Positions 32,151-64,000 of a stretch of 64,000 nucleotides of DNA are shown one piece after another. Each line of letters starts with the position of its first letter. Position 1 is the first letter of the stretch. Source of the stretch: Agelas oroides (lineage: Eukaryota > Porifera > Demospongiae > Agelasida > Agelasidae); assembly GCA_949130485.1 (NCBI GenBank), contig OX422185.1, forward strand, positions 9,796,118 to 9,860,117, read 5' to 3'. The position numbers and the translations under genes are program-made. The notes under the pieces were generated by a model. The model ran no database searches. It saw only the letters and a list, made by a program, of their open reading frames with translations, and was not told the origin of the DNA.

Positions 32151-35100
32151 CTGGATGGGTGACAAAATGCAAGAGTAAAAACATGCAGCAACTATTAGGC
32201 ATTTCTGAACCCAGCATGTTAGTTTTGCACATGAAGTATACCTGTAATGAATTGCATACAGTGAACAGCCATGCAAACACAGTGGTGTTTTCATTGACAG
32301 CCAACAGCCCAAACACCCAGGTGATTCCAAGAAGTGGCAGCAGGATTACTGTACTCTTCACTGCAGTTCTGGGTAGAAGAGCATCATGTTGTATGTTACT
32401 ACAAGATCAAAATTTTCTCCAAAGCAACTGAGAAGGGCTGATGTATGGCAGAAAAAAATTGGTGGATATTTCTAGCAAGGATAGGTTGAAATCATTAGCT
32501 AGTGACATTTGTTAGAACACAACAATCTGCAAGCATGTGGGGAACGTTCAGCAGTTAATCATTAATTGCTACTGACGCATATGCCATTTGACTTTGATAT
32601 TGTGATGTCACTTGGTTCAATGGAGAAAGAGCTGCATTTATAAAAAAAAACAAGAGCAAAAAAGCACAGGGTAGCTACTGTGGTTACAATATTACCCTAA
32701 GAAAGTTCACTATTGAGTGGGCATGGTTAGTCACAAACATGGCTAAAAGCAACCGAGTTACTAGTGCCAAGGGGAGGGAAATCCACTGCCTGGTATACAT
32801 TGTGTATGCACGTGTGTCAATTTCCAACAATTCTTGGGAAACTGTATCAACACTGGCTAGCTGATAAAATCATCTGAGAGATGCCAGTCACTAACCACGG
32901 TCTGTGAAAATGATAATGACAAAGCGCTGAGCTCTTCACTTCCACAAGTTAAACATACATCCATTGCAGCAAAACACCATGCCAAGTGAATGATGCAATC
33001 TGTCCTTCCGATGGCTCTGAATGAGCCAATACAGACATTATCGAAGTTAAAATGATAGCAGTTCTGACTTCAATATGACCTGAATGCCTGAATGTGTCAA
33101 TACAAAGGGAGCACAAGTTTTTCCATGGCCTTTCCACAGGTAAATTAAAATTTGCTGTAACTTCTCCCGTATGTGATTAGAGTCCCCCTGGGTGATAGTG
33201 TTGGATAACAGCAGAAGTCAAGAAATATACGACACTAACTCTTGTAGAATTATACATTCATGTAAAGAGTTAATAGTCATTAGTACAGCCAGCCAAGACA
33301 GTCACCATGTGCACGGAATGTCAGGGGTGGATCCAGGATTTTGAAAAGGGGGAGCTGGTACATGGTAAGCTTAGGCGGGCCGATATTGCGCGTGCAGGGG
33401 CGGGGGGGGGGGGGGGTTGTGATGAACATGCTCCAGACCTGACAGTCAGACCTTAACCTGGTCAAAGTCATTGAGAGAGAAAGGTGAGAAATAAAGACAA
33501 GAAAGAAAGAGGGACAGTGACTCAGGGAGGGACTCGAACCCGCGACCTGGCAAATGGCTCTAACAAACTGAGCTACAGAGTCACTCGGCATTCCAGTGGC
33601 TGAGTTTGAGTACTTAAGGCTGAGCTGCCAGGGATCCAGCTGAAGCAGATACCAAGCTGGCATGTTCGATGGGTGGGTGCGACGAGCGCGAAGCGTGAGG
33701 TGCAGGATCGGTTGTTAACATGCTCCAGACCTGACAGTCAGACCTTAACCTGGTCAAAGTCATTGAGAGAGAAAGGTGAGAAATAAAGACAAGAAAGAAA
33801 GAGGGACAGTGACTCAGGGAGGGACTCGAACCCGCGACCTGGCAAATGGCTCTAACAAACTGAGCTACAGAGTCACTCGGCATTCCAGTGGCTGAGTTTG
33901 AGTACTTAAGGCTGAGCTGCCAGGGATCCAGCTGAAGCAGATACCAAGCTGGCATGTTCGATGGGTGGGTGCGACGAGCGCGAAGCGTGAGGTGCAGGAT
34001 CGGTTGTTAACATGCTCCAGACATGACAGTCAGACCTTAACCTGGTCAAAGTCATTGAGAGAGAAAGAAGACAAGAAAGAAAGAGGGAAAAAAAGACAGC
34101 GACTCAGGGAGGGACTCGAACCAGTGAGCTGGCAAATGGCCTGCCATGCTCTAACCAAGTAAGCTACCGAGTCACTCGGCAACTCAGTGGCTGAGCTCGG
34201 GTACTTTTTGAAAAAGCTGTTTCTGTGTTTGGAAACTCGTAAAAGGACGAAATAATGGTACCAAGTCGAACGTGAATGAGTCATTAAAAACCCAAAGCTA
34301 GTGTTTGAACGCGTACGTCTACAACATTTTTGGTCATCCCGCACGAAGTGCGGAAGCTCCGAATATTGAAACCCCTTGAAACAGCTATTTCTGAACTTGG
34401 ACCCTCATCACAGGGCTCAACATGGTGCTTAACGTCCATGAGACGTCACATCTAATACCTTCGGCATCGTTCACTATCAATGACAATATAAAATGTGCCG
34501 TGCCACCTTGGAGAAGTCTAAAGAGGGGGAAGAAGACGTATCCCGAAGTCGAAATATTGACATGCAAGAGCGGATCCAGGGTGGGGGCCGAGCGCGAAGC
34601 GCGAGGCGGAGAGATGCTTCTGATGCTAGTGGGAGGCTGGCGAGCTTCAGCGTTGAGGAGCGAGGAAGCAGGGCGCTTCCGCGAAGTAGCTGGCATGTCC
34701 ATCGTTGCTGCGGGCGGTCCACGTTCGCGGTAGACACTTTAACAGTAGACAGCCGAGTGGCTTAAATAAACTTAATCTGGTGACAATGTCCACCCACCTC
34801 CCCCTGTCCCACCCTGTTTGCTAGTGCAAATCCATCTTCAAAACGGATTGCACCAACTGAGAACATGTGGCCAAAATCAAACGATACCAAATGGTGTCAG
34901 AGTGATTCTCTAAGACTTAAGTAACAATATTGTAATTCCAGTATAAAAATAATAAATATTAACTTACTTGACCAGCTGTACATTTTTCACATGAGGTTCT
35001 GCTCCACCAAGTTTCTTTGCTCTGACAAGACTCACAATTGTTAAAACTAGTACAGTTGTGTTGATCTGCAAAACGTAAAGTGTAAAGATTAGTAATACAA

Positions 35101-38100
35101 CAGAGGTCTATACAGAAATACACAAACTTTCTTTGCCAAAGTAAATCACATTGTGCACTTACTAACCAGGATAATAAACAACATTGGTCCAACAAATGCC
35201 CATATCGTACCAGATCTTGTAGAAAGCCAACAGCTGAAAACAAAGGGGAAAATTGGGAGCATTAACAAGTATTCATGGTATGCCTTAGACTAACAGTAAA
35301 ATTGAAATTTGTATGTGCTAAGCAGATTCATTTGTGCCACAGGCATGTAAAATTTAATGAAAGTACATACTTACAAGTCATCAGTCCCATAGTCTTGGTG
35401 CCTAACTCCCACGGAAACTCCAACAACTGCAATAGGTAGACCTACGTATAGAGAAAGAAACTAAATGGAATGAAATCAACCCCAAGCTTAGGAATAAATT
35501 AACACTGCGTGAACACAAGTATTACAAAGCTTTTTCCAGTGCTGTTTTAGTAAAGAGTTTATACCCTTTGTTTAGTTATAGTTAGTGTATAGATTTGGAA
35601 AACACTTTTGGTTATAGTTTTCTACTTTTTCAACTATTTTAGTTAGTTACATTTTCAGTTTCAGTAGCTACTTTAGTTATAATTTTCGTTTTGGGCAATC
35701 CTTTTAGCTATTTGTAGCTTGAGTAACTAAATTTGTAAAAGGCCATATTAAAAGGTATTTAGTTAAAGTTAACTAAAAACAACACTGCTCTGTTCCAAGG
35801 ATTACAGCGCTGGAGAGTAAAAGAAGGAACTAAGAAAGCCTCTATGAGGTTACTTTGCAACCTAGCCACATGCAGACAGGGTACCAAGCTCTTGTAGCTA
35901 TTTGCTTTCAGCCGTGATCAAGCTTACGTATCTGTAGCAATGATGTCTTAGGCAATGTTCGTAACTAAGCACATGGTTTGACATCTTTAGTCACCTTTTG
36001 TTGAATGAAGGATATCTATCAGGCTATCTGTCTTCTTAGCATAGAGAGCCTGGGAATGAAGCTATGTAGAAGCGTGTTAATCACATGTGTGACATCAAGG
36101 GTAGACATGAGGTTGATACGACTGTGCATAGGTATTCACTACAGGCAGCTCAGAGCTATTGAGTGGGACAAGTACATACACTGCTATGATGGTACAAAAA
36201 CCATTTGCTACGACGGCTGTAATTTCCCAATAAAGATGGAGCAGTCTAAGTAGATCCTCAGTGTGTCAAACTGACTTGACCACAGAGATAGAAGTGGAAT
36301 TGACTAATGGATGAGAGGACTAATAGCACGCTGAAAGATAGATAATTTTGATATGGCACTAAACCTAGCTACCTCACATGGCTAATTTCTACAGATCAAT
36401 AATACCCCAATGTAATGTTACCTGTGATATGTCAACTAATTAAGTCATGCCTCAATACATCTGAGTATGTTCATTTCTGTACCACCAACAAGTAGTGCTT
36501 ATTCTTGGAGGAAATTGGCACTTCAGGAATATCATATGCTATCATTTTCCAAGGGCGCCCAATTGGGATGTTCGCCAGTGGTGCATGCTGTGGAGATAGC
36601 ACTTCTGATTTACGTCTGCCGCAATGCCGATCCAGTATGCTTTTTGGCAGATTTGATGCAGGATTTTTTTCAGCACCTTGATGACCAGCACTGGGGGCAT
36701 CATGATTGCTGCAGAGAGCTTTGTAGCAAAAGCTAGTGGGAAGAATCAGAACCAACACTAAATCTAAAGAAGGATCCGGAGTGTAGTGCCTGCAGAGTAC
36801 ATCCTTGACAATCTTGAGCTGTGACCACAGATGGTGATAACGCAGCAAAGGATGTCTGTTCCATTCTAGTGTTTGCAGTCTTGGTTTGGGTATGGAGCAG
36901 GCGTGTAGAAGTTTTGAGGTGACTGCATCTGCCTCTTGAGCTTTACGGAGCTCTTCAATGGAGTAATGTGGCATGACGACGGTGGCAGCACCCAATTTGT
37001 CACCCAAAGATGTGCAACGAGAAAGTGCATCTGCATTAGTGTTGAGTGATCTATTTCAGTGTATAATTTTAAAATCATATTCCTTTATGGCTAATGCCCA
37101 CCAGCACAGGATGCCCTATGTGTTGCGAGGACTACCACTCGTAGCAAACTACATAGATGACACCCTGGTTCACTCAGCAAATGAAGATGGACACAAACAC
37201 CATCTTTGCGAAGTCTTCCAACAACTGAAGACTGCTGTGCTGACCTTGACATGTCTTCTCTGGTTCAGGTCTGGCTAGTCTTCCAAAACACAACAGCTGT
37301 CTGACAATTTTGGGGCCTTGCCTTGTACTACAGGCGGCATGTTCATCATTTCTCTGAAATTGCTGCACCGCTGCATGCCCTAACACAAAAAGGAGTTCCA
37401 TTGCCTTGAAAGGCCGCTTGACACCAGCACCAGTTTTGGCCTATCCGTGGTTTGACCACAATGCAGGTACATTCCAGTTGCAAACAAATGCTAGTGCAGT
37501 TGGCTTGGGCACTGTGTTAGAACAGAATGGCCGTCCAGTGGCTTATGCAAGTCATTCACTTATATCGCCAGAGAAACAAGACGCTGTCATACACAAAGGG
37601 AGTGTCTTGCAATAGTAGAGTAAGTTAGCAATCATCGGACGACAGGTATATTCGGACACTCAAACGCGGAGGGAAAACTCGGCGATACCACAAGACTGTA
37701 GCTGAGGTACGTGGTACCTGGTGTACCAAAAATGACGCCCGCGCATTGTTTCCTGTTGGCGCTAGAAGCGATAAAATGGCCATCCGAAAAACATCAATAT
37801 TCGGAAAAGTGTATGTATTTTCAGACACTGTTGTTTGTGCCTTCTCTGAAGCTGCTTTTGGAGAGATTTTAGCATCGATACGATGCCCCAAGACCTCCCC
37901 AATTCGCAATATATTTTGGTAGCGGTAGCTGCTTTGAACACTCAGGGGCGCAGCTGAACATGGACCAGTCCGATTTGATCGATATCGGACGGTGAAATTT
38001 GTCATTTCTTGCTGTGTTGTCTCCAAACAAGTTGAAGTCTCCACCATATTAGCATCAGTAGAATCTACAGGCTCTTGGCTACATGCTGGTATTTGTCCGG

Positions 38101-41100: not shown

Positions 41101-44100
41101 GCTCTGCATTGCAATTCATTCCATGTTTACATTAATCAATAGAAATGAGTTCAAAATGTATTACAAGTAGGAAAGTCCTCAATTTAGTCCATGCTGGTGA
41201 TGTCACTTCACACAAAGAAGTTGGCCCAGTCCCGACATTTGTGATATTGGTATTAATGGAGAGAGGATTCTCTGTAGAAGTTAGAAGATCTGCCTTGGAA
41301 TTATTAATACAGAAATTCTTGCTTGAACTACTGAAGTTGTATGTCGAGTGGGGGAGCACCAACACCGCTGGCACATCGATGTTCAAAATTTCACACATAC
41401 ATAAAGTGTGAAGTTAAAACATAAAGGGAGATGGGGATGGGGCATTTATGGCTTAGATGGATGGGGCATTTTATGGCTTAAATGGGTGGGTGTGGCATTT
41501 ATGGCTTAATTAAATGGGTGGGGCATTTTATGGCTTAAATGGGTGTGGTATTTATGACTTAAATGGGTGGGGCATTTATGGCTCAAATGGATGGGGCGGT
41601 TAGTTACTGTTTTTGGGAGATATGCTCAAAAAATACTGGTCTTCAGGGGAGTACCCTTTCCGGTCCTCGCATGACCACGGGTTTCGGTCCCTTTGAACTC
41701 CCGACCCGTGGCCTACTACAGAAAGGGCGGGACCACTCCCCGCCTAAGGTTTGCTTTGAGGAGCCCAGCTTTTGGTTGGCACATAGTGCTATGGGCATTC
41801 ACAGTGCTATAAATATTCAAATTCAGTTAGTTACTTGCTACCATATTTCTTTATACATTCCTGAATGCCTTTTGTAGGTAAAAATATTAATGATGCAAAT
41901 GATCAAGTATTTCTCCATATATTCATACATAGCATCAACAGCAGAAACAAGAAGCTTTTCTAGAGCTTAAGTGGAGCATTTTATGTGATTGGATAGTAGA
42001 AATTGTCTTGTCCACAAACGTTTTCTTGTTGCAAAATCAATTAGTACTGGTTTTAAAGTTTTCGTACTATGCATTTTATTTGATTAAGCATGGAGCCACC
42101 ATTGCCTGCCACCAATGGGTGGTCGCATGAGCCCATCACTGCATTTTGTGTTAAAGTAGCGTAGTTTATAGCTGCTTAATTAAGCCATCACCTTGTGGTA
42201 ACTACATGTATTAATAGTTCTACGATGAGAGAATACTGCTATGTAAATTCTTCTCTTCATCCTTGTTTCTATAGTAACACGTGGATACTATTCTCCATAT
42301 ACTGACAGGAAGTTGTAGATTCTGTTTTTTATACCACAGGAAGTTGTACAATGATCTTTTATGTTTACTACCTTGTTTACAGTTTAAACTACATTGTAAT
42401 AACAAGAAGAACCAATTGGGTTGGAGAATATAACACGTAATGCATGCTAGTCTGGGATTTGTGGTTTACAATAACCACCCTTGTCCTTGGGCTCCATCCT
42501 CGGAGTCAGGTGGTTATTGGCCATGAATCTTATAGGCTACCATGCATTATTATAAGCTTACCCCATCCCAGTATGAGGAAGTAGTACCACTTTCTTGCTC
42601 CCTGTCCAAATACCCTCACCACAAGCAAATAGAGCATGATGCCTTCAGCCAGCATCCAGCAGAACACACACAGAAAGAAGTAGTGAAGTAGGACTGCTAC
42701 TGTCGTACATAGCCACTATAAAATGGACAATTTGAAGATGGAAGACAAAAAAGTCATTTGTGTTTTTTAAATATGTAGCAACAAGTCTATCACTGTTTAT
42801 AGCCATTTCCTTGATAAAATTGTGGAACTAAGCACTGGACTTTTGTAATTAACGGGGACTTATAATTGTGGGGTGCTTATATCCATGGGTGTTAATAAAT
42901 GCGAATGGTAGCATACAGTTGTATGGAAACATATTAGCTGTGATATAAATATGCAGAAGGCTGCTGCACTACCTATTCTTGAATAAATCAGGTACTACAA
43001 AGTGTTGTCAAAAAACAACAAGAGGAAGCGCATAGGCAGAAAGAGGCCCTTTAGTGCACCAGAAAGCGTTCTTGTCAAAATGACAGTTGCGAATTCATTG
43101 GCAAAGGCATTGTAGTGCAAGCAGACCACGTTCATATCAAAACAAGCACAGACAAATGTGGCTGACAGTCTGAGAGATGATTGGGACCTGTACCTGCATT
43201 TATTCAGGGAAGTCTTGTTACTGCAAGCAGTTGAAGCAACAAATATTGAGCTTAAAAGGTCTCTGTGAGTGAATTGTGCTTTATTTTGGAAAATGTGCTT
43301 CTGTTACAATGATGGATCTATTTTAGTAGAAACATTTAATCATTGTCATTTTCATCATTTAATCATTATCAACTGTCATTTTGACAAGAATGCTTTCTGG
43401 TGGGAAAGACCTGTGTAGCTCTTTTCATTTTTATAAATCTAATCTAACAGGGGCCAGATTTGAAACCATTTAATTCACTTCATGTACTTACCCATATATC
43501 CCACCTAGTATAGTCTTGCCATACAATAGGTGGGGTTTAATTGTGATATTTACCCTCCTTGAGGGGTAGCTACAAGGGAAAGTACGGCTCATAATTCCCC
43601 CTCCATGTATTTACAGTCCACTATATTGCCATACCATAGTCCAGATTTTATACACAGTTGTGTGTAAATAATATGTACAGATGTGTTAACTGTAAAAAGT
43701 TGCACACATACAGACAATAATAACAGCAAAGGACCAATCAGGTGGGATATATAATAGTTATAGCACAGGTGGCCAGAGATTTATGGCTGTTACTGAACAA
43801 ACCTTGTCCTCGGGCTACGCCCTTGGACTTGGTCTGTTTACTGCCATAAATCTCTGCCACTGTGCTATAACTATACCGTGGACTCTGGTTAATAAGCGCA
43901 TGCACTTACAAGTGTAAGTGGTAAGCAAATATGCGCCTAATAGAGGATATGTGCTAAATAATGGATGCAATGAAAGCCACGCCCTACAGGCCGACAACCG
44001 ACATGCATGACTGTAATACGCAGCGCTATGGTACAGTAGATCGTTAGACGCGTTCACAAGGTGAGTATCGACGTAAAATCAGAAGACTCCATCCTCGTCA

Positions 44101-47100: not shown

Positions 47101-50100
47101 CAATCACTGGCTCCTGAAGAACAACCATGATGAAGATCTGGGTCTTGCTGGTGCTCTTAGGTAAGAACTACTAGTGAGATGATTCGTCATCATGGGGCGA
47201 GCCTGAGCAAGCAGCAAACTGCTGATTTACTACTTTGTCATGGCACACAGCAGGATTCGTCACTGTCGACTGTTTAAGCCAAATTAAATAACGCATATAA
47301 GGGCTAAGTCCGATATAAGTATCACATATGCCAGCCATTTCTCCAGCCAAGGCAGCTAATGTGCTACACATAAGCTTTACACTGAAATCATGAGCTAAAT
47401 CTCTGGCATTTGTGAGTGCATGTTGTTTATGCATGGCCCGCCGTACCTCAGTGAAGTGACCCAGCAACCACCGTCCATATTAAATTTGTACCGCCAGTGA
47501 GCGGACTGTCTTCATCGGTAGAAACACAAACCAGTGCCACACATGCTTCTGACAATAGCCCTTAACATGCTTCACGCGCATCTTCGAGAAATATTTAAAA
47601 TTTACGGTAAGTAGTCGGTCCATAGATAGCTAGCTACATACACACACACGTGCGCAATGCAGTCACGCTAGTGTGGGGCTCGCTCAGGCTCGCCCCAATT
47701 AAACTTGGAGGTGTCTCAAACCTTGCAAAGCTGAGCCACAGTAGTGGTATTGGCTATTGCTACATGCAATGCTATGCTGCACAAAATGTTTCTTTCCTGC
47801 ATGGCCAAGGGACACAAAATACTACACTCAAGCAGCACATCAAGCTCCACATCAGTCCGAAATTCAGTCCAAAAATTAGTTCATAGTCCAGTCAAGAGTC
47901 TAGAGTCCAGGTTTTGTACCAATCTGGGAAGAGTGGTTTCTACGCCTGTTTATGACAACAAGGTCAGCCCAGTGCCGGCCAAGGCCAACCAGCTAAGGCA
48001 GCTAGCTACAATGTGCACGGCATGTTGTGAGTATTCCTGCCCACCTCTTCTTATCCCGCCTTTTTGCTGCACAAAATCTATTTTCAAAACGAATTGTGCT
48101 AACTGGTACCACGTTTAAAACATAATTGTCTTGTCAAGCCCGTAGGCAGGGAGGGTTTGAGGGGGTTTGCTTGAACACCCCTTTTGTCCTCCAAACAGTT
48201 TTATGCATCGCCTGGATATATGTTTTCAATGTCCTACCGCTACAATGTATAAACTGCTCTACCACTAGCCTCACTGCCATAGCATTGTGATAACTGCCCT
48301 CCAAACACATTGCTGCTATGCACTGTGTTTGTTTTTGAGGTTTTGAGATGCCCCTAGTCTTGCATGCTTATGCATACGTACATGCACAATCAGATATCTA
48401 GGTACCCCCCTTCTGAAAATCCTGGCTACGGGCCTGCTTGTGTATACCCTGCAACCCATTTATAAATGTACCTCTATGTTTCTTGCGGTTTCCAGTCCCG
48501 AGACAAACAGGAGAAGTGCAAGCGCAAGTGCTATGGAAAAGTTAAGGTGGATGGGAAGCAGCACACCTTTGTTGAGGTATTTGCTGTGTAAGGATAAAAT
48601 GGCATGAGCATAAATAGCAACATTTCAGAAATTATAAGAAATATAGTCATAAACCAAATGAAATCCCACTGTGAGAAGAGTGAGTCCATGTATGTCTGCT
48701 TGTTTGAGATTCCATGAGTACTACCACACCATAATCCAGAGGAAGTATGTACAAATCCAAATTGTGGTAGTTATTTGTATCTTCGGTACACATCCTGTCA
48801 AGGGTATATACTTACAAATGTTGGACATATCCTGTGACAGGTGTACCTAGAAATGCCACAGGTAAGTTTAATGCCCCTTTGATCCTACGTATACATGTAT
48901 GCACAATCATTCTTTAAGTGCTGAGGCTAATTATTTTTGCACATGGTACTGTATTATAGCTTCGGACTATTATGAGAGTTTGCATAACTGCGAATACTCT
49001 TTAAGAAGTGAAAGGTAGGGGACGTTCAGGTGTATGCTTGTATGAAGATTGACAGAGTGTAATTGCAAATGAAATTTGCCAACTAGACTACGTAATGTTA
49101 GCTACCATGATAACCCCAAAACTAGGCTTTTGAATATTGGTTTACACAGTAACATGACATTCTAGTAGTACGTACTCCCATAGATTATGTATCAAGCACC
49201 CACTCCCCTCTTTTTGCTCAAGTTTCTGCACAGGGTCGCAAAGAAATGTAGTAAGGCCCTACCTACCCCAAGGAATGACCAGTAATTTATTGTGCAATCG
49301 TCAATGGCTAAATTTTGCTAGTAATGATTTATCTCTGAATTTGAATTACATGTACCTGTCAGTGCGCATGAAAGCCTGTAGCTAAAGCCTCGATAGTACA
49401 TAGCCACTAATCAGCAAAAACTCCCCAAAAATACGCAAGTTCCAAGGGTCGTATCTAATCACTGGACTGGATTGTGGACTGGACTGCTGGACTGATGGAC
49501 TAGATTGTTGAAGAGAAAACTAAACAGCAAGAAACTGATGCTTATCACAGTGCGGAGCTCTACGACCACTCAGCGTCTTCATAGCTTCAAATTCACCCTG
49601 GTCAACAAAAGCCATTCACAACACTCTGAGGCTGCTGTCCGTTACTTAGGACGCCATTTTCTAATTTTGTACGCATGCACACACGAAGTCTCGTTCCCAG
49701 ACCAAAGACCACAGCCATTGGTCTGGAAGCGAGACTAGTACACAAGCGAAATCGCCAGCGGGCAATACGCATGGCTGGCACAGTCTTTTCCCCCTGAGGG
49801 TTATTGTCCCTATCCCTGTCCCTCTCTCCCTGTTTGTGTCACCATGTCCATGTTGCTGTCCTTTGTCACTATTCCTCTGTCCCTGTCCCTATGTCTGTCC
49901 TTGTTTCTCTGTCCCTGTCTGACTATTCCTGTCGCTGTCCCTCTGTCCCTGTCCTGTCCCTGTCCCTGTCCCTCTGCTGCATTGGGCAAGGCTTATGAAC
50001 AGCATGTAGGTAAGGCGCTGCATTCAGCTGCCTACTTGTAGCTACACTAAAAATAGCCTACTCACAGCTTTAGTGAACTGTAAAGCTAGGATTGTCAGTT

Positions 50101-53100
50101 GTCAGTATGATAGTTTTCTGTGCTGCAGCTGGTCAGTCGTCATGTGATTGACAACTGAATCATGAAATTGGTTTCACAAAGTTTGGTAGGGAGAGTGGTT
50201 TGCCCTTCATCAGGTTCTAGCAGGCTATATTACACATAATTATTACATGCCTGGAACCACTACTAAACTGTCAATGCCGTTTTAAGTTCTGGTGTTGTGG
50301 TTACACTTGAAATATTCTTCTTAGGCTTAGGTCTGACTGTAACTGATCAAAAAAGTACAGAAACAAGACTTAAAAACATTAAAAATGTAAAGAGATGTAG
50401 GAATAGCATGCCAAAAAGTATGCAAACAAGGTAGGGATAATGCATGAAAGCAAAGGTCAACATATTGGCAAAGCCCGATGCAATACTGCTAGATCATATT
50501 AGCCTTGTTCCTGAGCCGGCATGTGGGAGAAGGAAAGTGTCCTGGGGACGAGGCTAAAACCATGCCATGTACTTAAACGACACTATCATAAGTCTGCAGT
50601 CTACTCCAACTCACTGCTTAAGTTGTTGAAGAAATTCCGTATAACATAATGCTACCAAGAGGGTCATACTAGCCTTGTTCCCAGGCCACGTGGGAGAAGG
50701 AAGTGGCCTGAGAACGAGGTTCAGCCATGAATTGCCAGTAAAGGTTGTGAACTTGTGGTACGTTTTAGGAAGACCCCCATGCACTGTCTAACTGTAGTGT
50801 GAAAAAGATGTAGGGATGGGGCTTTGCCAATATGTTGACCTTTGCTTTCATGCATTATCCCTACCTTGCTTGCATACTTTTTGGCATGCCATCCCTACTT
50901 CTTTTTACATTTTTAATGTTTTTTAAGTCTTGTGTTAAATAGTTGTAAGGTATAGTTTATGGGTCCAAAATATTAAAAGGACCAAAACTCGCTGTCATGC
51001 AATGATAAAAAAGGGTAATCCCCTGAACAGCAGTGCTTTTTTTTTGGGGCATATCACTAGTAATTACATGTTTAGCTATGAATGTCCCACTCATTTGGCA
51101 GCAAGTTTTCCACACACTAACCATAACTGTCCCACCCATTTATTCATAACTAGCTCACTCCCAGAGTAACTTAACTCCACCGTTTTTAGTACCATACCAA
51201 ATTCGTGTATAGAAAATTCCACACCTATAGAAACAATAATGTGCTTGTTGGTGTTGGTGCTTCCCCATGTGACACGACAACAATACTACATGTATGAGCA
51301 ATCAATGAACCACATCTCCCTAGAAAATAATCATGCTACTTACCCAAATATCATGAAGGTAAATACTACATGTATGAGCAATCAATGAACCACATCTCCC
51401 TAAAAAATAATCATGCTACTTACCCAAATATCATGAAGGTAAATACTACATGTATGAGCAATCAATGAACCACATCTCCCTAAAAAATAATCATGCTACT
51501 TACCCAAATATCATGAAGGTAAATACTACATGTATGAGCAATCAATGAACCACATCTCCCTAGAAAATAATCATGCTACTTACCCAAATATCATGAAGGT
51601 AAAGATTGTGAGGAGCAGGCAGATAAGGGAAACACAACACCCTATGTATGTCACAATTTGTAGAGACAACTGCTCCTCTCTAGTTGTAATCTGAAATAAA
51701 GAAAGAAACAATTATAAGCAGTAAAGTTGTATCACTCCCAGGTGTGTACACAGTAATGTCACACAGCCTCATATAAAAATTTTACAACCTAGAGTTATAG
51801 TAGCATTACCTTAAGTTCCCGAGAATACACCCCCTTCAAGTAAATGCCCTCTCCCCTCTTTAACCCTCAAGTTCGTACATAGATATTTTCCCCTCGCTTA
51901 AATGCCCCATATCGAGCATCTTCTGGGCATGCTTTTAGTAAGCTCTTGGTTTTATTAGCTACTCATTGACTGTGTTTGTAAACACATACACACAAAATTA
52001 CTACAGCCTCAATCGCTGGCCATTGCTAAGGTTTTTGTTGCTTGCACTGGGAATGTGAGCTTACTGCGGGGTTGTCTCCTGTCCTCACTGACGATGCAAG
52101 TTCCTTCAATGCCTCTTGGTTTAGTGTCTACACAAGCGCTGCTAATTTCCTGTAGTACATGTTCAGCAAAGTTGCCTATCTTCCAGAAAGTCACAGCAGT
52201 GGTTGTGATTGTCAACCTCATGCACATTAAAGATTGTAAGGAACGGAAGGAGGGGGCAAACGCATGAGACGAATTGAATATTCAAGATAACACTCCCTCC
52301 CCACTTTTGCCTTAAATAGTGTGCAAAAAGGATGGGGGCATATTTTCGGGAGCTTATTAGCATATACAACAGATAATGGAAAATACTGAAAATTTGTTTC
52401 ACGCGATTCCCAAATGCCAGGCAACAAGCTGCTCTCATGTATTGCACACGGGAACTGGTGGGGGAGACTCCTCTACCATTTTAGGACTCATATTCATTTA
52501 GAATGTTTCTCTATGTGGTATGGCTGCTGACAACTGGGTCTATGTGTAGCAGTCCCTACTTTGCCTTATGGTGCTAGTGCTAAACCTCGGGTGTATGCCC
52601 TGGCAGTTATTTGTAATGATTACTATTCTAGGCAGGAAGAAGTGGGATGCAAGGGGTAGAGCCATCACCGAAGTCACCATGCGAGGAATGTGCAGGTTGC
52701 AGCTTTGTAAAGCTTTTAGTAATGGTAATGAGTAATGGTGTAAGAGATTAGTGGGTTGAAGGACAACGTTGCACCAACCTTGCTGTGGAGTAACCTACGT
52801 ATACATGCCAGATGTTTGTAGTGTAGTGAACTGCAGGTGTGTTGCAATTTAGGCGGATGTGGTAAGCTTTCGGTAGGAGTAATGATACGTAGTTGTGGTG
52901 TTGCCTCCTGCAGAGTAGTAAGGGAGCCTTCTGAAGTTGATGGCACTGGCAGCACGTTGCCATGAGATTAGATGTGCTAGCTATAGGTGCATATTTGGCT
53001 TTGTTGTGTACTGCTTGAAGTGGACTAGGGAAGGGACAACGTTTAGAGCTGTGGCTGCAGTTGGAAGCACAAGTTATTCTTCTTTGCAGGCAAGAAGAAT

Positions 53101-56100
53101 AACTTTGTACAAGTGCCATGATAGTAAGGGATTTGGAGGATTTATGACCCCAGACATCCATCACCACTAGATTTTCACACTGGAGAAGTATGCGGCATTC
53201 AAATTCCAGGTTGGTAGGAGGTGATTCAGCAACAAATGTCTGCTCTAGCTTCTTGATTGTGGTGTTACGTAGGTAGTGGTGCGAGGTCTTGGTCCCGGTG
53301 GAGAGTTTCATTAGATGGGGACAAGAGCTGGCGTTTTGTGCACTTCTTGGTTAGCCAATCAGTGAGTAGCGACAAGAGGTTGCTCAGCTTGTCATCAGGG
53401 AGGTGCAGTTACGTACCACTTGCCTTGGAATGTTAGTGATGTAAATGGTTCTTCGTCCAGTTCATTGACAGAGGGAAGTAAAAAGGGTGAATGAATGCAT
53501 ACTTGGTGGAGCCAATGGGTAGGAAGTCAACAAGGTAGTGAATCAGATCATTAGAGCAATGTTTGGTGATAGTCCAGTATAGTGCATTAGCTACAAGGGG
53601 GCCTGGTGCAGCCAAATGGGAGCTGATTGTCCATGTAAGTAGGAGATCCTCCAGTAAATTTCGAGGAGCTTCCAATCCTGTCTGTTCACTGGTAACAATC
53701 CAGGCCCAGCTATCAGCTGAATGTCATTGTTAATCGTGCTATAGTAGGGCGAATAGGACTCTTTGACAGTTCTATCATTAATGCTGCTAAGTGCTTAGCT
53801 GACAGGTGTACCCTCTTGAGCACTGGAAGTTGGGAAAGTAAGCTGTAAGTTCCTGCCAAGTGGCACTTTTAATCTCCATTCTGCAAGACTAGTGCGTGTT
53901 GGTAGGTCTGCCACGTGAGACTACTGTGTTGGAGGGTGTGGAAGTAAGTATATATGTTACTGCCTGATTTCAAACCCTCTACCAGTTTGTAAACCATCCA
54001 ACTGGATTATAAGCTGATCAGCTGAATTTAAAACTGGTCTGGTCTACACAAAGTCAGAAAATGGGTTAATAAATTGGCATACATGGTTGAAATAAAAGCT
54101 CGTAGAAAGAAGCTGCGAAACACAATCTTGTGTTGTTCATACTTGATCCCAAAGATCTGGGAACCAAACGATGCCTGGTGTAGTTACCAACACAAGTGAG
54201 CACCACTAGCATGTCTTAACTTGGAATGAGGCAAGTCATTTTTTTTGTATGTTAGTTTTAGCCATACTTGTTAGTCTCACAAGCCAGACCCAACTAACAC
54301 CATTGTGGATTGTTTGGGTCTGGCTTGCTTGCTTATATGCTTCTGTAAATCATTTGGCCAGCTTTCATGCTATTTGGGCTGCAAGCTGCTTGTTTGGCCA
54401 GCTTTCTAGCTGTCCAGCAAGCCTGTGCAGCTTTCATGTTGTTTGGGCTGCTTGTAAACCATTCAGCCAGCTTCCACGTCGTTTGGCTAGCTTTCAAACC
54501 GTAATGCAAGCCAGTCCTGAGAATGAACTGTTTCCATCAAAAGACCGATTTTCCAGAATTGCTACCCCAGTAACAGCTAGGTACTTAGGTAGGACAACGG
54601 TACTTTGTGTGAAATGTCTGGCAAGAACTGTGTTTGGCTAGACCGTCTTTGGGGAGTTGGTAAAACGTGGAATACCTGGTTTCCGAACGGCACCACTTTG
54701 ATTTGTATAATGAAAGCGGGCCAATCGGTTTAAAACTGGATGACCAGTTTATGAACCAGTGGCCTGTTTACAAACTGGTCAAGTTTGCAATCAGTTTGCA
54801 ATGTAGTTCAGACTCAGGATGAGCTATGTCAGTGGGGTATGAGGGTAGTGGCCCTCAAGTGGTGTAACTGCTGCCAGTGCTGGTTGAGGAGGGATGCTTC
54901 CCCTCACATTTGATGGACATGTGGGCGTACTTACATTGGGAGGCATATGGACAGGAAGAGTAGCTAAAGCATAGGCATGATATTGTGGCTGTCTTTGTCC
55001 TGTTGCTGGTACAATAGGAAAAGCAATTCCTGGCGGGACAGGCTACCATATATCATACTGTGACCATATTTGTGGCATTTGGAACAGAATGGCCTAGCAT
55101 GTATATATACGCCAAAGTGTCCATAGCTCCTGGTCCAGCAAGTCCAAACAGAGGCTGAAGTTGTGACTCAGCTTTAGGCTGAATGCTAGCCTTTACAGGC
55201 TTTAAAAGTGATACTGTTTTAACTGCTAATATAATGCGGTCTTGATAAGTGTTTATTTGGATTTGCCTGTTTGGGTTGTTAGTGTTCTGTTGTAAGGAGG
55301 TAGAGGGACAAAACCTGATTCTTTGGCTTGCAAAGTGGAAACCCATCACATGTACCAGTATTCTATGGCTCAAGTTATAGTGTAGTACATAACTTTTCTC
55401 TCCCTGAATGGTTCACCTGTGGCAGAGTTCTCGCTAGGCCTTTAGCGGATGGTTTTGCACCATTTGGTTAATTGCAGCACCATTTGGATGTGGCGAATTT
55501 AGGTAAGAGCACCATTTGGATCACTTCCTAAACCCTGCCCCTAGCAGTTACTATCCTGGGCTTCCACTTAACATTTCAATAGCGGTGTGCAGAGAGGGTG
55601 TTTCATACCAGTCACGTGCGCTATGCATTAATGATAATTCCAGGACTGAAAATCATCAATACAACAATTGGAAATGGTGTGCGGCAAAGATCATAATGGG
55701 TTTAGAGGGGTTTTCGTGATGCTGAAAGTGTCTCGCCAGTCAGAAGTAACATTACATGCCTTTGTGACCTCCAAATGGCATTTATGTGGCTGTTGAGAGC
55801 TAGATGAACGGCAATGATCGATCTCGACCTAATAGACAGCTTCAGTATGGTTGAAAATATCCCCCAACCCAAGTGAACCCAGCACGCTAGAAGCTTCTGA
55901 TGCCGAGAAATTGTTCTTGAAGCAATGGAATGCAGGAGGTTAGCAAGTAACTTGACAATCAGGATCACGTGTTGATGTATACGACATCACGAGTGTCGGA
56001 CCTCCTCTGGTTTCATATGTGCCTATTGTACTATGCACCATTTGGAAGTAGATTTCTAGCGAGAACCCTGACCTGTGGTCCATTGACATCCACTAGCACT

Positions 56101-59100
56101 GCAAAAGATGTAAGATGTGTTGTAGTACATGTGACACTTCTTCCGTTCTCCAAAGTAGTTTTAATACCAACAGAAGACCAGTTACTGCAGTGAACAATGC
56201 ACAAATGCTAAGTGAAGTACTTCATTAACATGCACCTACAAAAGCATCTTGATGCCTACACATTCTAGTGCAAATTGGCTGTCTCCAAAGTTGGATTAGT
56301 ATATACATAACATCAGGCTTTGTTGTGTACTAGCATTTACAAAGGAGCAAAACGTTGAAACAGCAGAATGTAAGTGTGACCAGGTATTGCGTAATCAACC
56401 ATTGACCATTGGTCCTTTTTGTATTTTAGGGTAGGGTTCTGGTTCATCCTGTCCCAGAAAATATAGACTGCCCTGTACTCGGTTTTTCAAGTCTGTTTTC
56501 AGAATAATGCTGAATGAAACAATGCATTCGCAGTGTGGTTGACACAACTTGTTTTACTTAGACACTCTAAGCCTCATTCAAAGGCAATTCGTATTTCCCG
56601 AAATGGCAGAGAACATAGAGGAGAACAAAGCGAGACAGAGCGGAACGTCACACAAAATATGGAACAGCTAGACCAGTGGTCAAATGTTGATCACGATGCA
56701 TGCGTAACCCAGCTCAGTGACACTTCTAAGCAAGTTTAGTTTGGTCTTGAAACGGCCTTGTTAGGGCACCTGCCACATTAAGATGAAGAGACAAAAATAT
56801 ATAATAGCATTACTTTTAAGGAGATTACAGCATGTTGAGGATACATATGCAGGAACTGTTCTTCTTGAACTTTCATATATGATAGGGAAAGCAGTGAATT
56901 TGCTTACCTAATAGAGAAGTTCCAGAATACACACATGGAGGTGTTGGTAAAATTATAAACCTGTGGAAGTCAACATTTACTGTTGTTTAAGTGTAGCAGT
57001 TATATATCTCTACAGCAGATTCTTAGTTACAATGTACTGCTAGGCTTACTGACTCACTGTTTCAGTGGGGGCAAAGTGCAACTGGACAGGATGAGTAGTG
57101 ATTTGCTCTTCCAAATGGGGTGCATTCTGAACTGTAGCAGTCAGAATCACTGTGTTGGCCTTGAGTTCAGTGCTGTGTGAAAATTGCAGCACAAATTTCT
57201 ATGTAGTTGAATGATACACTGTATGGGTTAGGAAACTACTCTCACTGGTCCGTACCAACATCTATACCTTGTGATAGTTTGGTCCAGATATCCTGGAAGG
57301 TTATGTATCACAGCAGAGGATATCACGGATGGACAGTCTGGGAGAGATCAAGAAATAAATTTACAAATGCCACACAACAGACGCCCACATGCATAAATAT
57401 CTACCGTTCTACCCATTGCACCACACAGCAATGGTTTTGGCTTCCTCATCATTTGCTTGAAGAGTGTGAAGAAGTTGTTGGGAGCATGGAATTCCTCAGG
57501 GAGAGTTGGAAGAGACTCTCACACTGTTCACAGCTATCTTGCCACTTTGCCAAGTATCAAGATCATAGTACGAATCCATTGTGATCAATACTGCCTCGAA
57601 GTTTTAAGTATACGGTAGTCATGCCTTAATGCACCTGAAATCCAGCGCTCTGCTCCCACTGAACAAAAGTTGTGCAAAAGTAGTAAGCAATTGGTAGAAC
57701 TTGGAATGTAACTAATGATGTTAGGTACCCAAGTTGATTCATACGCCTAATTTTTGGCTCTTAAAAAATCGGGTTGTAGTTGTACTGCGTAACTTTATTG
57801 TGGAGGTTAGGCCGAGTGAGTACATACACAGACTCGCCTAGTCGCCTCATACCACACAAAGGCCTTAGCTGATCTTAGAAGTCTGCTTGGGACAGCAACT
57901 AAAATGGTTGCATGGCTTCCACTGACTTACTAAAGTTTACACACAGTAGTAGGTGCCATGCTTCACTTGCTCCTCCATGCCACTCATTGACAAGCGTATG
58001 CAGTTTGTGTATATGCATGTGTATGTGTTACGCTGTTTCCTTATTTTCGTGCCCAGCTGTCCACGCCCCCCTGGTAGAGAACGTATGGTGGTTTGATGCA
58101 AATTTCTTGTCACTAACACCTTTCTCATCTGGAATGTGACATGAGCAATGAAACCTGAGTGCAACAATTAAGAGTTGTTATATCATAGAAGTGATTGAAG
58201 TGCAAAAAGGCCGCCTTGATTGTATTCCGAGGTTTGCAATTATTGTGCGGAAGAGAGAACTCTGTGCATCAGCACTCCCTTCTTTTAAGAACTGGGTTAC
58301 AACAAACCTACTTACAAAGTCAGGCAGTTTGCAAGTTTGTGTGAAGGAAAGGTATCAACATGCTTGATCAGAACACTGTGTAAAAAGGTGTCATCAAGAT
58401 ATGTATGATGTGCGATATTTTCTCAAAAAAAAAAAGCCTCCTCAAATAAACACTAGCGTTGCTTATACGCCAGGTGTATGTTCGGCTGTATAAAGCTTAT
58501 AAACTCCAGGTCTCAAATGAACATTGAGTTCCAGCTAAAGGTGTGGCACATTTGTCCATGTGTACATGTACAGCATAGTCCAGTGTCTTATAAGGTGCTA
58601 CAAATGCAGGCTTGGAAATACTTTGTCTCACAAGCCAGACAATTTTTGTTCCGCAGCACTGATCATTTCTAGTACCTGGCATGCTGGAAGTGATTGGTGC
58701 TGTGGAAAAAGAATTCTGGTTTGTGAGACTAGCTAGGAAACTAGTGGCCACCAAAAAAGTACTGTCAATACAAGTAGTTCCACAAATGTGGGCCCACTTT
58801 GCTTTGATGCCTGGTCTACATAGTTGAATAGAATTTGCATACATGTAGCACTTAATGTTCACAACTATTTCAGTAGTACCACCGTAAGGTGATACAATGT
58901 TTGACAGTGAGGAAAGGTTATTTAGGAGTGCATATGCAAGCCTTACCTAAGTTGTCCGGAGCAGCTTCTTCGCCAGAATAGGTATGGTCTTCACACAGCA
59001 ACTGTATTGGTATCTCCATCATGGTTGAGATATTACCTGGGACACAGAAGTTGCATGCAACAGTTATCTAATGGGGAAGCTCTCTAGCTTAGCCTCATTC

Positions 59101-62100
59101 ACAGACCTTGCCCCTGAAAACCTTGACTGTAGCCTACAAACGAAGCTAGTGAATCTACGTATATGTATGTATTTACAAAAACACTATATAACTGAGCCAA
59201 ACCAGAAACTCACTAAAAGTACGCCCAGAAGACACTTACTATAATGAGTGAAAATAAGGACTTGGGGGGGGGGGGGGGGGGGAATTAAAAGGGGGAAGGG
59301 TTTTTGGTCAAAGGGGGTGAATTATTGGGAGCTTACAGTATGAGCACAACTAGGCTTTAGTGCTGTTGTGCGGATAAAGATGCCATGCACGTAGGAGAAC
59401 TAACCAGCTTTTGGAAACCGGTAGGACCCTATGAGGAAATCCTGCAGCTGGACCCTCTCCACTGTCAGTACTGATGGGAAGGAATAAATGAGAATGAGGC
59501 TTATTAAATTGGCACATTCACAGAAAATTTAGATATTGCTCTGCAAATTTTACACTGTGAGCAGCCTGGGTTGGCTCCCATTCACAGTAGGTGCTCAAGC
59601 TCCAGGTGCTCCTTCCTGTCTTCAATTCATTCATGCTGAAAGATTCAAGTGGCTGATTGGCAACTTGTTCATCAGTACACAGCAAGTGTATGTTGATACA
59701 GTAAATTGGAGCGTTAGAGACACATAGAACGACAAACGTAACATACATGGCATTACATACGACAGTACAGACACCACCACAACCCACTGTAAACTGATTA
59801 GCAGTTGGTATGTAACTCCACAAAACAGCCCCCTTCTCTCACTCGACTACGTATCAAAGTTAGTGCATTGTTGAACCATAACTGTAGTGACTGGTTGTTG
59901 CAAAAACCCAGTAGTTTTTCATAGGGGAAGTGTTACACAGGCAAGGGTGACATACTAATCTCATCCATGAACATTTATCTGTATCTTTAAGGTTCTATAC
60001 ACTGAAAGTAGATTCAGCAGTTAACCAGAGGTGCTCAATCAGCAGATCACTTACTCCATTTTGATCATGTAGCATAGCATAGCAGGAGTTCATAAGCTGT
60101 CATAGCTATAAACTTATAGTATGAGAATACGGCAGATTGACCAAACCAGTTATGTACTGAGTATATACGGCCAAAGAGCAAGACATCAACCAGCAGCTAG
60201 CAAATCAATCTTCCCATCATACCACACAACTACACCAAGGTCTTGTTTAGTGAATGGTTTAGTTTTCTCCACTGTAAGAAGTTGAAAAGCATTGGAAATG
60301 GAGCAAAATGTCATGGATAATCTTCAGACAAAAGCAGGGGTGAGAAAACAAGGGTAAAATTGGTACTGGTAACAAAAATGAACTCTGGCAAGAAGAGCCA
60401 AATGCTAAGAAGAGTCCTCGGAAGAGAAGCAGCAGTACAGTGCACATCTGCATGTACCAAGGCTTCACTCTCAACCACAAAGCTAGCGGAAGCCTTTATA
60501 TGAGCATCCTGGCCTGTCTGCAGAACTGCCAGATAGCTCTTGTACAGTAGAAGCTCCCCCTCCAGCTCCCCCTCCTACATCTCTATCATAAATGTCTTCA
60601 TAACAGTATTAAAAATTAGCGCAAAAGCTGGTTATTGTTCATATGTGACTGTGCATTTCTGTAGAGTGCAGTAGACATGCTTGTGTTTGCATATCCCACT
60701 CCAGACTCATCCCCTACTTTTAATGATTTCTGTAAGCAAATTTGCTGTAACTTTGTGTGAGACAGTTTATCCAATGAGTGCTTAGATGAAAAGAAGCAGC
60801 AGAAAACTGGATACCTAAGCAGAAATAAAGTACTGGCTGATGGTTACTTCATGGTACAAAATGAAATGCAGTTAGCTATTGTCATCTATCTATCACAGTA
60901 GATACACAAAAATTTGCTCCTGGTCATAATTCAATGAGCTGTTACTTCTGCATACCATCGGCTAATTACGCTGAAATTTGCCCCCAATTTTCATGTGTTC
61001 CCTGGGTACCGTAGACACTGTTGCATCAGCTGTGTCTTTTTGCAGTGCATGGTCTGGTGGTGTTAAGTTGTACATGAAGTGGAGCTTGTTAGTGGGTGTG
61101 TTGGCTTGCGAAACCTAGCTGCACTATGTGGGTGTGTGTGCCATTGAGTGTGGTTGGCGGGGGACAATACCGCTGTTTCACTTTGTTGATATTGCGCACC
61201 GTTTGAGCACAGAGTCACTCAACAGTCTGCCAAAGTCCATCGTTTTCAGAGATTGTGTGTCATACCTACAGTTTTCACTGTACTCTAAATAAGCCAGATG
61301 CCTCAACCAATGGGAACTACGTAATTCATGGAAACCCTTGGGCCCTTAGTAGTGTCCTCACTACACTCGGGATGCTACAGCTTGGGTTTCTAAATTGTGT
61401 AATTCTCTTGGCATCACATCTAACTATTATGTATAGTGGAAAATTGTTGTAGGTACTGATTCTAAGGACAAAAAAAATCTTCATCAGGCTTCGACCGAAC
61501 CCCTTACATTGAGCATGGCACAAAATAGCAATTACTGAAAACATTTCTTCAACAATTTGTGGAGGGCTGGTGTACTGCAATGTAGCAAAGTGATCTTGTT
61601 CACCAAACCCTTGAGCATTGCGCACCTACGTAATAGGTCTCTAGCCTAGAATTGTAGAGACCTTGTACCATGTGTTCAGCTCTTTATTAACAGGTAACTG
61701 ATGGCAGTTGAGGGTCTTAGGGTGATTTCAGTGAATAGTAGAAGTATCAATGAAGTGATATGTATATACCCAACTACACAGTAGTTAGGCAATGAATAAC
61801 AGTATAGCCCATGGTTGGCAGTTTGGATTTGTGTGAACCAAACTTTCACAGGAAGAAATTTTGTAAGTTAATCGGCAGTTGATTGTAACAATCACAAAAT
61901 TTTGTGCTTCGTAAAAAAAACCCTTATAGACACACTGTGTACTTTTCACACTGCAAGTGAAAAAGCAGTGGTGAGGTCTGAGAACAGAAATGGGGAAGAA
62001 TTTTCAAATATGCAGTGTTTGATGGACCACATGATGCACCCCACAATTAGGCCACTCGTAAGGCAAGTGGAGGTTAGGGCATATGCCTTTAGATAGGAAT

Positions 62101-63807: not shown

Positions 63808-64000
63808 CTGCAGGATTTAAAAAGAGAAGAGTGACAAATCTATTATGCAGTTTAACGCCAGTTAAACCAAGTTAACCCTTTAAATCCTATAGTGCACTTT
63901 TGGTTACATCATACTGCGCACTGCGCACCGCACACCTGCAGGGTGACATGCACATGGTGGCTGCTAGGCTTGGCTGTCAAAATGCCATGGTGGGACTGGG
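63808..64000. other. Right edge, intron of receptor
   Basis: Sequence upstream of the first placed exon. No further receptor exon is visible before the window ends, so the 5' part of the gene lies outside. Confidence 0.5.

Follow-up and report, generated by a model that had tools for sequence, protein, structure and literature searches.

In the 64,000-nucleotide stretch of Agelas oroides DNA analysed here (the window), a MITE with a hAT-like signature sits exactly on a splice donor of an adhesion GPCR gene, namely that of the intron between the exons for the GPS motif and the first transmembrane helix (TM1). The explanation that we consider likely is that of a near-silent insertion. A ~238-bp MITE landed on this donor, and its 8-bp target-site duplication placed a complete exon end and a GT on both sides of the element; later, a second repeat inserted into the MITE. 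The rebuilt donor adjoining the exon (the near donor) would be the one normally used, the intron being lengthened by 656 bp with the protein unchanged and the insertion tolerated, and the former donor, which lies 656 bp within the present intron (the far donor), would be a spare, either silent or in low-level use. Where this old donor is used, the resulting early-stop message would probably be degraded. Near-silence is the most likely outcome because the duplication rebuilt the donor. Two points weaken this explanation: the face-value order of the divergences of the two repeats, which is reversed, and the restricted scope of the protein search that yielded a probable empty site.

The minus strand of the window encodes part of an adhesion GPCR in nine exons, from 57198 to 34968 (Table 1). 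When joined, these exons display AG/GT borders and consistent phases, and give 303 amino acids without a stop that comprise the GPS motif and TM1-TM5; the expectation of the preliminary description that use of the near donor keeps the receptor frame open is thereby borne out. The joined frame matches 7tm_2 with E=2.7e-46 (profile positions 2-188 of 250) and GPS with E=2.1e-10, and the best match of the joined protein among solved structures is ADGRD1 (E=3.6e-47). It has the defining succession of the adhesion GPCRs, i.e. a GPS motif and then a secretin-type 7TM, of which the model covers TM1-TM5. The gene model spans exons E5 to E13, with the 5' border of E5 placed by eye, and we infer that E5 lies at the position of the GAIN domain. 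The HLTS in exon 7 is presumably where receptors of this kind self-cleave. Pfam searches of the minus strand over 55900-64000 found no domain besides GPS, there just below its cut-off, and none in one plus-strand frame over 52000-64000. The open, in-phase frame of 303 residues and the strong 7tm_2, GPS and ADGRD1 scores together mean that the gene does not look dead.

Table 1. Coordinates, in positions of the window, of the receptor exons, the inserted element and the associated splice signals (a slash marks the exon-intron border).
Feature	Positions	Strand	Remarks
Exon E5	57058..57198	-	Extracellular, just before GPS; frame open and in phase, borders AG/GT; no separate Pfam domain
Exon E6	56908..56960	-	First part of GPS motif (CVFWNFSI); GPS match on joined protein
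Exon E7	56073..56184	-	Remainder of GPS motif with HLTS; terminal CCACAG; PF01825 E=5.1e-07 on exon frame
Exon E8	51584..51690	-	TM1
Exon E9	48472..48583	-	TM2
Exon E10	42562..42715	-	TM3; PF00002 E=5.4e-14
Exon E11	35375..35441	-	TM4
Exon E12	35167..35233	-	TM5, first part
Exon E13	34968..35065	-	End of TM5 and loop after TM5
Whole element, 648 bp	55423..56070		15-bp inverted ends with one mismatch
Target-site duplication, intron-side copy ACCTGTGG	55415..55422		Perfect 8 bp
Target-site duplication, exon-side copy ACCTGTGG	56071..56078		Perfect 8 bp
Outer ~238-bp MITE, left arm	55423..55608		93% to L013 over 187 bp
Outer MITE, right arm	56019..56070		
Nested repeat, inserted later; 401 of ~418 bp, lacking its left end	55609..56009		Between GTTTCATAC (55600-55608) and GTTTCATAT (56010-56018)
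Near donor GT (CAG/GTCAGG)	56071..56072	-	GT from target duplication, CAGG from element; U1 duplex -7.4 kcal/mol
Far donor GT (CAG/GTGAAC)	55415..55416	-	Probable ancestral context; U1 duplex -8.4 kcal/mol; P0001 reads GPQVNH
In-frame TAG met without near-donor splicing	56031..56033	-	Read-through

The two copies of ACCTGTGG flanking the element are identical at all eight positions and comprise the six terminal bases of the GPS exon followed by the donor GT, reading CCACAG/GT on the gene strand; both the perfect duplication and the placement of the insertion exactly on the donor had been noticed in the preliminary description and are upheld. The terminal inverted repeats, CAGAGTTCTCGCTAG (55423-55437) and CTAGCGAGAACCCTG (56056-56070), are complementary at 14 of their 15 positions. 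An origin of the element as a single unit was considered and ruled out: the other full copies are 170-313 bp long and its middle 401 bp are a different repeat. It is this second repeat inside the MITE that makes the receptor-gene copy longer than its kin. The nested repeat shows a 9-bp duplication of its own, in which GTTTCATAC of the MITE has been copied with a match of 8/9.

Full copies of the MITE were taken from loci L009-L058 as elements of 150-700 bp with three or fewer mismatches per end, which gave 24 distinct elements: that of the receptor gene and 23 others of 170-313 bp. An exact 8-bp duplication flanks 11 of these 23, and 16 have one with at most a single mismatch, as against 0/23 exact in a shifted control; hence, the duplication at the receptor is not a matter of chance. 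A clear duplication is absent (two or more mismatches) in the other seven. Three 234-bp copies (L029, L030 and L031), which lie ~21-26 kb apart near the start of contig C1, have no target duplications and are alike in their flanks; a larger repeated segment, copied as a whole, may account for them. The end sequence CAGRGTTCTCGCTAG has 190 exact matches in the genome, as against a single one for the same letters in backward order. CAG ends are characteristic of hAT elements, and 8-bp target duplications are a feature of hAT MITEs. The outer MITE has such a hAT-like signature and resembles hAT MITEs in its 8-bp duplications, CAG-type inverted ends, size of ~238 bp and many copies, its superfamily being assigned by this signature alone; the receptor-gene copy differs from them in holding the nested repeat. 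Thus, the earlier designation as a hAT-like transposon stands for the 8-bp duplication, the CAG ends and the non-autonomous nature of the element, but what it treated as one transposon is a MITE plus a second repeat.

The family of the nested repeat is represented by seven other copies of 417-418 bp with the ends CAGAGGAGGT. Their 9-bp duplications are exact in four and have one mismatch in a fifth; of the remaining two, one instead shows an exact pair of 8 bp and the other no duplication. At least 39 other matches to this repeat exist in the genome, 40 of 588 candidates having been scored. A 9-bp target duplication points to MULEs, and the nested repeat is MULE-like by this duplication signature alone. 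Since it inserted inside the MITE, the outer MITE must be the older of the two. The K2P divergence from the family majority is 3.9% for the left outer arm (28 copies) and 3.5% for the other outer arm (18 other copies), and the nested repeat is at 6.0% from the majority of its seven other copies, which are the best matches and themselves average 1.8% from that majority. Taken at face value, these divergences (6.0% for the nested repeat over 3.9% and 3.5% for the MITE) are ordered opposite to what the nesting requires, though they come from small samples and provide no clock.

The GPS-TM1 junction has a phase-0 intron in all ten pairs of paralogous exons that we examined by eye in three-frame translations. 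These pairs were picked from 67 genome matches as those with both exons matched side by side; the paralogues L066 and L068 are near-copies, and the ten are accordingly not all independent. The paralogue exons end one to three codons further on at this junction than exon 7 of the receptor. A closer relative emerged when the exon-7 frame was compared with 5.8 billion proteins, in a search that sees only relatives of similar length sharing exact words with the query and that gave one candidate and one match. This protein, P0001, is identical to the exon-7 frame at 42 of 46 residues and ends in ...VDVNGPQVNH. The exon of the receptor here reads ...NGPQVRV, and GTGAACCAT (VNH) is found only beyond the element. 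In an uninterrupted orthologue, exon 7 would lead straight into GTGAACCAT with the frame ...NGPQVNH, and the empty site would read CCACAGGTGAAC; the chance of N and H together after a GT is calculated at about once in a thousand. P0001 is, therefore, likely to represent the empty site, in the form of a protein record only, and its terminal GPQVNH agrees with the earlier proposal that the GTGAAC context is the ancestral one, which it probably is.

The search for an empty site that the preliminary description had suggested thus yielded a likely case in a relative and none in the same assembly (G000), where the flank 56071-56400 matches only itself as regards a second allele without the element. 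The next best identity of a GPS exon among the matches of the own genome is 69%, so that P0001 does not stem from a second copy seen in this genome. Searches of genome contigs and viral contigs for the DNA of the source of P0001 found no relative. A protein search with the TM3 exon returned 29 relatives, and the protein database accordingly does hold related genes; only one relative gave the exon-7 frame.

On the minus strand the exon end reads ...GGACCACAG/GTCAGGGTTCTC with its GT at 56072, i.e. the exon has retained a donor GT followed by the transposon end (GTCAGG), as originally described, with the element contributing CAGG at positions +3 to +6 of the near donor. The other copy of the duplication reads CCACAG/GTGAACC with its GT at 55416, 656 bp past the near donor. 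By the free energies of their U1 duplexes (Table 1) the two pair about equally well, the far one slightly better. Neither lies outside the range spanned by 28 reference donors, extracted by script from a single gene family (8 from the receptor gene and 20 from the ten paralogues), 16 of which are weaker than either. At the GPS-TM1 junction itself, 8 of the 10 paralogue donors, seven of which likewise have a C at +3, are weaker than both the near and the far donor. The near and far donors are also the two best GTs in the stretch that begins in the middle of exon 7 and ends shortly beyond the far site, and 0/179 other GTs in intron 7 score as well as either. All four U1 loci inspected carry the usual ACTTACCTG. 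The assembly has 19 matches to the U1 snRNA, 17 of them above the Rfam cut-off and 12 of these 17 in one cluster (C14:5.55-5.63 Mb). Sequence alone does not choose between the donors; that the receptor frame is open points to at least frequent use of the near donor. As the far donor pairs slightly better, the case for use of the near one is built on the frame, which it keeps open, and on the length of the exon (112 nt with the near donor versus 768 nt with the far one).

Without splicing at 56072 the frame would gain VRVLARNLLPNGA and then run into a TAG (56033-56031), 13 codons into the element. This matches the earlier predictions that the far donor entails an in-frame TAG within ~14 codons and a receptor truncated before TM1. 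The stop would lie 614 nt before the junction of the far-donor message. By the 50-55-nt rule, messages with such early stops decay, although the host animal may differ; given the distance of the stop from the far junction, the far-donor message is expected to decay, and decay or non-use of the far donor appears likelier than a soluble receptor made from it. The preliminary description went further and saw here a switch between membrane and soluble forms, in which the two donors would be used in different cells, the far form being a secreted GPS ectodomain without the 7TM region. U1 pairing makes both donors plausible for such use, and for human and mouse adhesion GPCR transcripts two reports describe soluble N termini arising by alternative splicing or premature stops (PMC11039983, PMC6667449); hence, the idea is not far-fetched in kind. 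The predicted far-donor product is similar to these N termini, as portrayed there, in being an ectodomain without 7TM, but they were inferred from RNA, whereas here there is a potential in DNA only, which a transposon would have brought about. Against the switch stand the expected decay, the size of the far exon, the presence of GPS as the only Pfam domain in 55900-64000 and the fact that secretion of the product is an assumption. The AATAAA motifs at 55257 and 51956 in the scanned stretch are likewise of little help to it, two in 4.5 kb being about what chance gives by a rough estimate. Further, at ~5% divergence the 16 duplicated bases would all be unchanged with a calculated probability of ~0.44, and the two perfect copies, including the unchanged far donor, thus carry no signal of selection. 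We regard a regulated switch as quite improbable, and this part of the preliminary description is not supported. A dial by unproductive splicing, whereby the far donor would be measurably used and decay of the long form would lower the output of the receptor, is consistent with the comparable scores of the donors and with an early stop far upstream of the far junction; we deem it unlikely, if distinctly less so than the switch.

The region that follows TM1 bears on two further readings. At the end of exon 8 and after it (51282-51603) there are four copies of an 80-bp unit with 99% matches, each of which contains the 20 terminal bases of the TM1 exon together with the donor of that exon, TATTTGG/GTAAGTAG (GTAAGT), resulting in four identical exon 8 donors at 51583, 51503, 51423 and 51343. 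Use of any but the first of these is predicted to lead at once to GGG TAA, cutting the receptor after TM1. Two adjacent introns of the gene hence have donors multiplied by two different routes, which may be a coincidence. This repetition of the exon 8 donor, along with the long introns that hold repeats, could be expected of a decaying pseudogene for which the insertion is irrelevant; the AG/GT borders and consistent phases of the nine exons, the absence of a stop from them and the strong 7tm_2 and GPS scores speak against this, and we give it very little credence. We are equally sceptical of the most far-reaching proposal, that one transposition provided a choice between the full receptor and a secreted GPS ectodomain and, in conjunction with the TM1 donor array, between soluble, single-helix-anchored and full forms.

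The near-silent insertion on a pre-existing donor, which remains our preferred explanation, can be compared with the Introners, described as intron-making, DNA-transposon-like elements whose target duplication supplies a splice site (PMC9860276). The element in the receptor is like them, as so described, in being DNA-transposon-like and in having a target duplication that supplies a splice site; however, Introners create new introns, whereas this element is located at a donor that was already there, which it has duplicated, and makes an old intron longer. It has not itself created a new intron in an exon, since the intron pre-exists in all ten paralogue pairs and in P0001. We found no paper on a transposon-copied splice donor in the literature searched, which misses most subscription journals and so gives only a weak indication that none exists, and none in the same literature on soluble adhesion GPCRs in sponges. 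An event of this kind need not be rare: a random 8-bp target would cover a donor GT in ~0.4-0.5% of insertions if there are 150,000-200,000 introns, a number that is a guess, and with at least ~100 copies about one donor hit is therefore expected, if tolerated. The interest of the case is in its neat mechanism and its probable before-state rather than in its improbability.

What the locus offers is a clean natural case in which a gene has apparently survived a transposon on a splice donor: the exon end and the GT are restored by the duplication, and the terminal CAGG of the element completes the rebuilt donor. The probable empty site in a relative allows a comparison of the states before and after, in which the choice of donor following the insertion is measurable. 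If the far donor is used, the transposon would have equipped a signalling receptor, in one step, with an isoform that is soluble or prone to decay.
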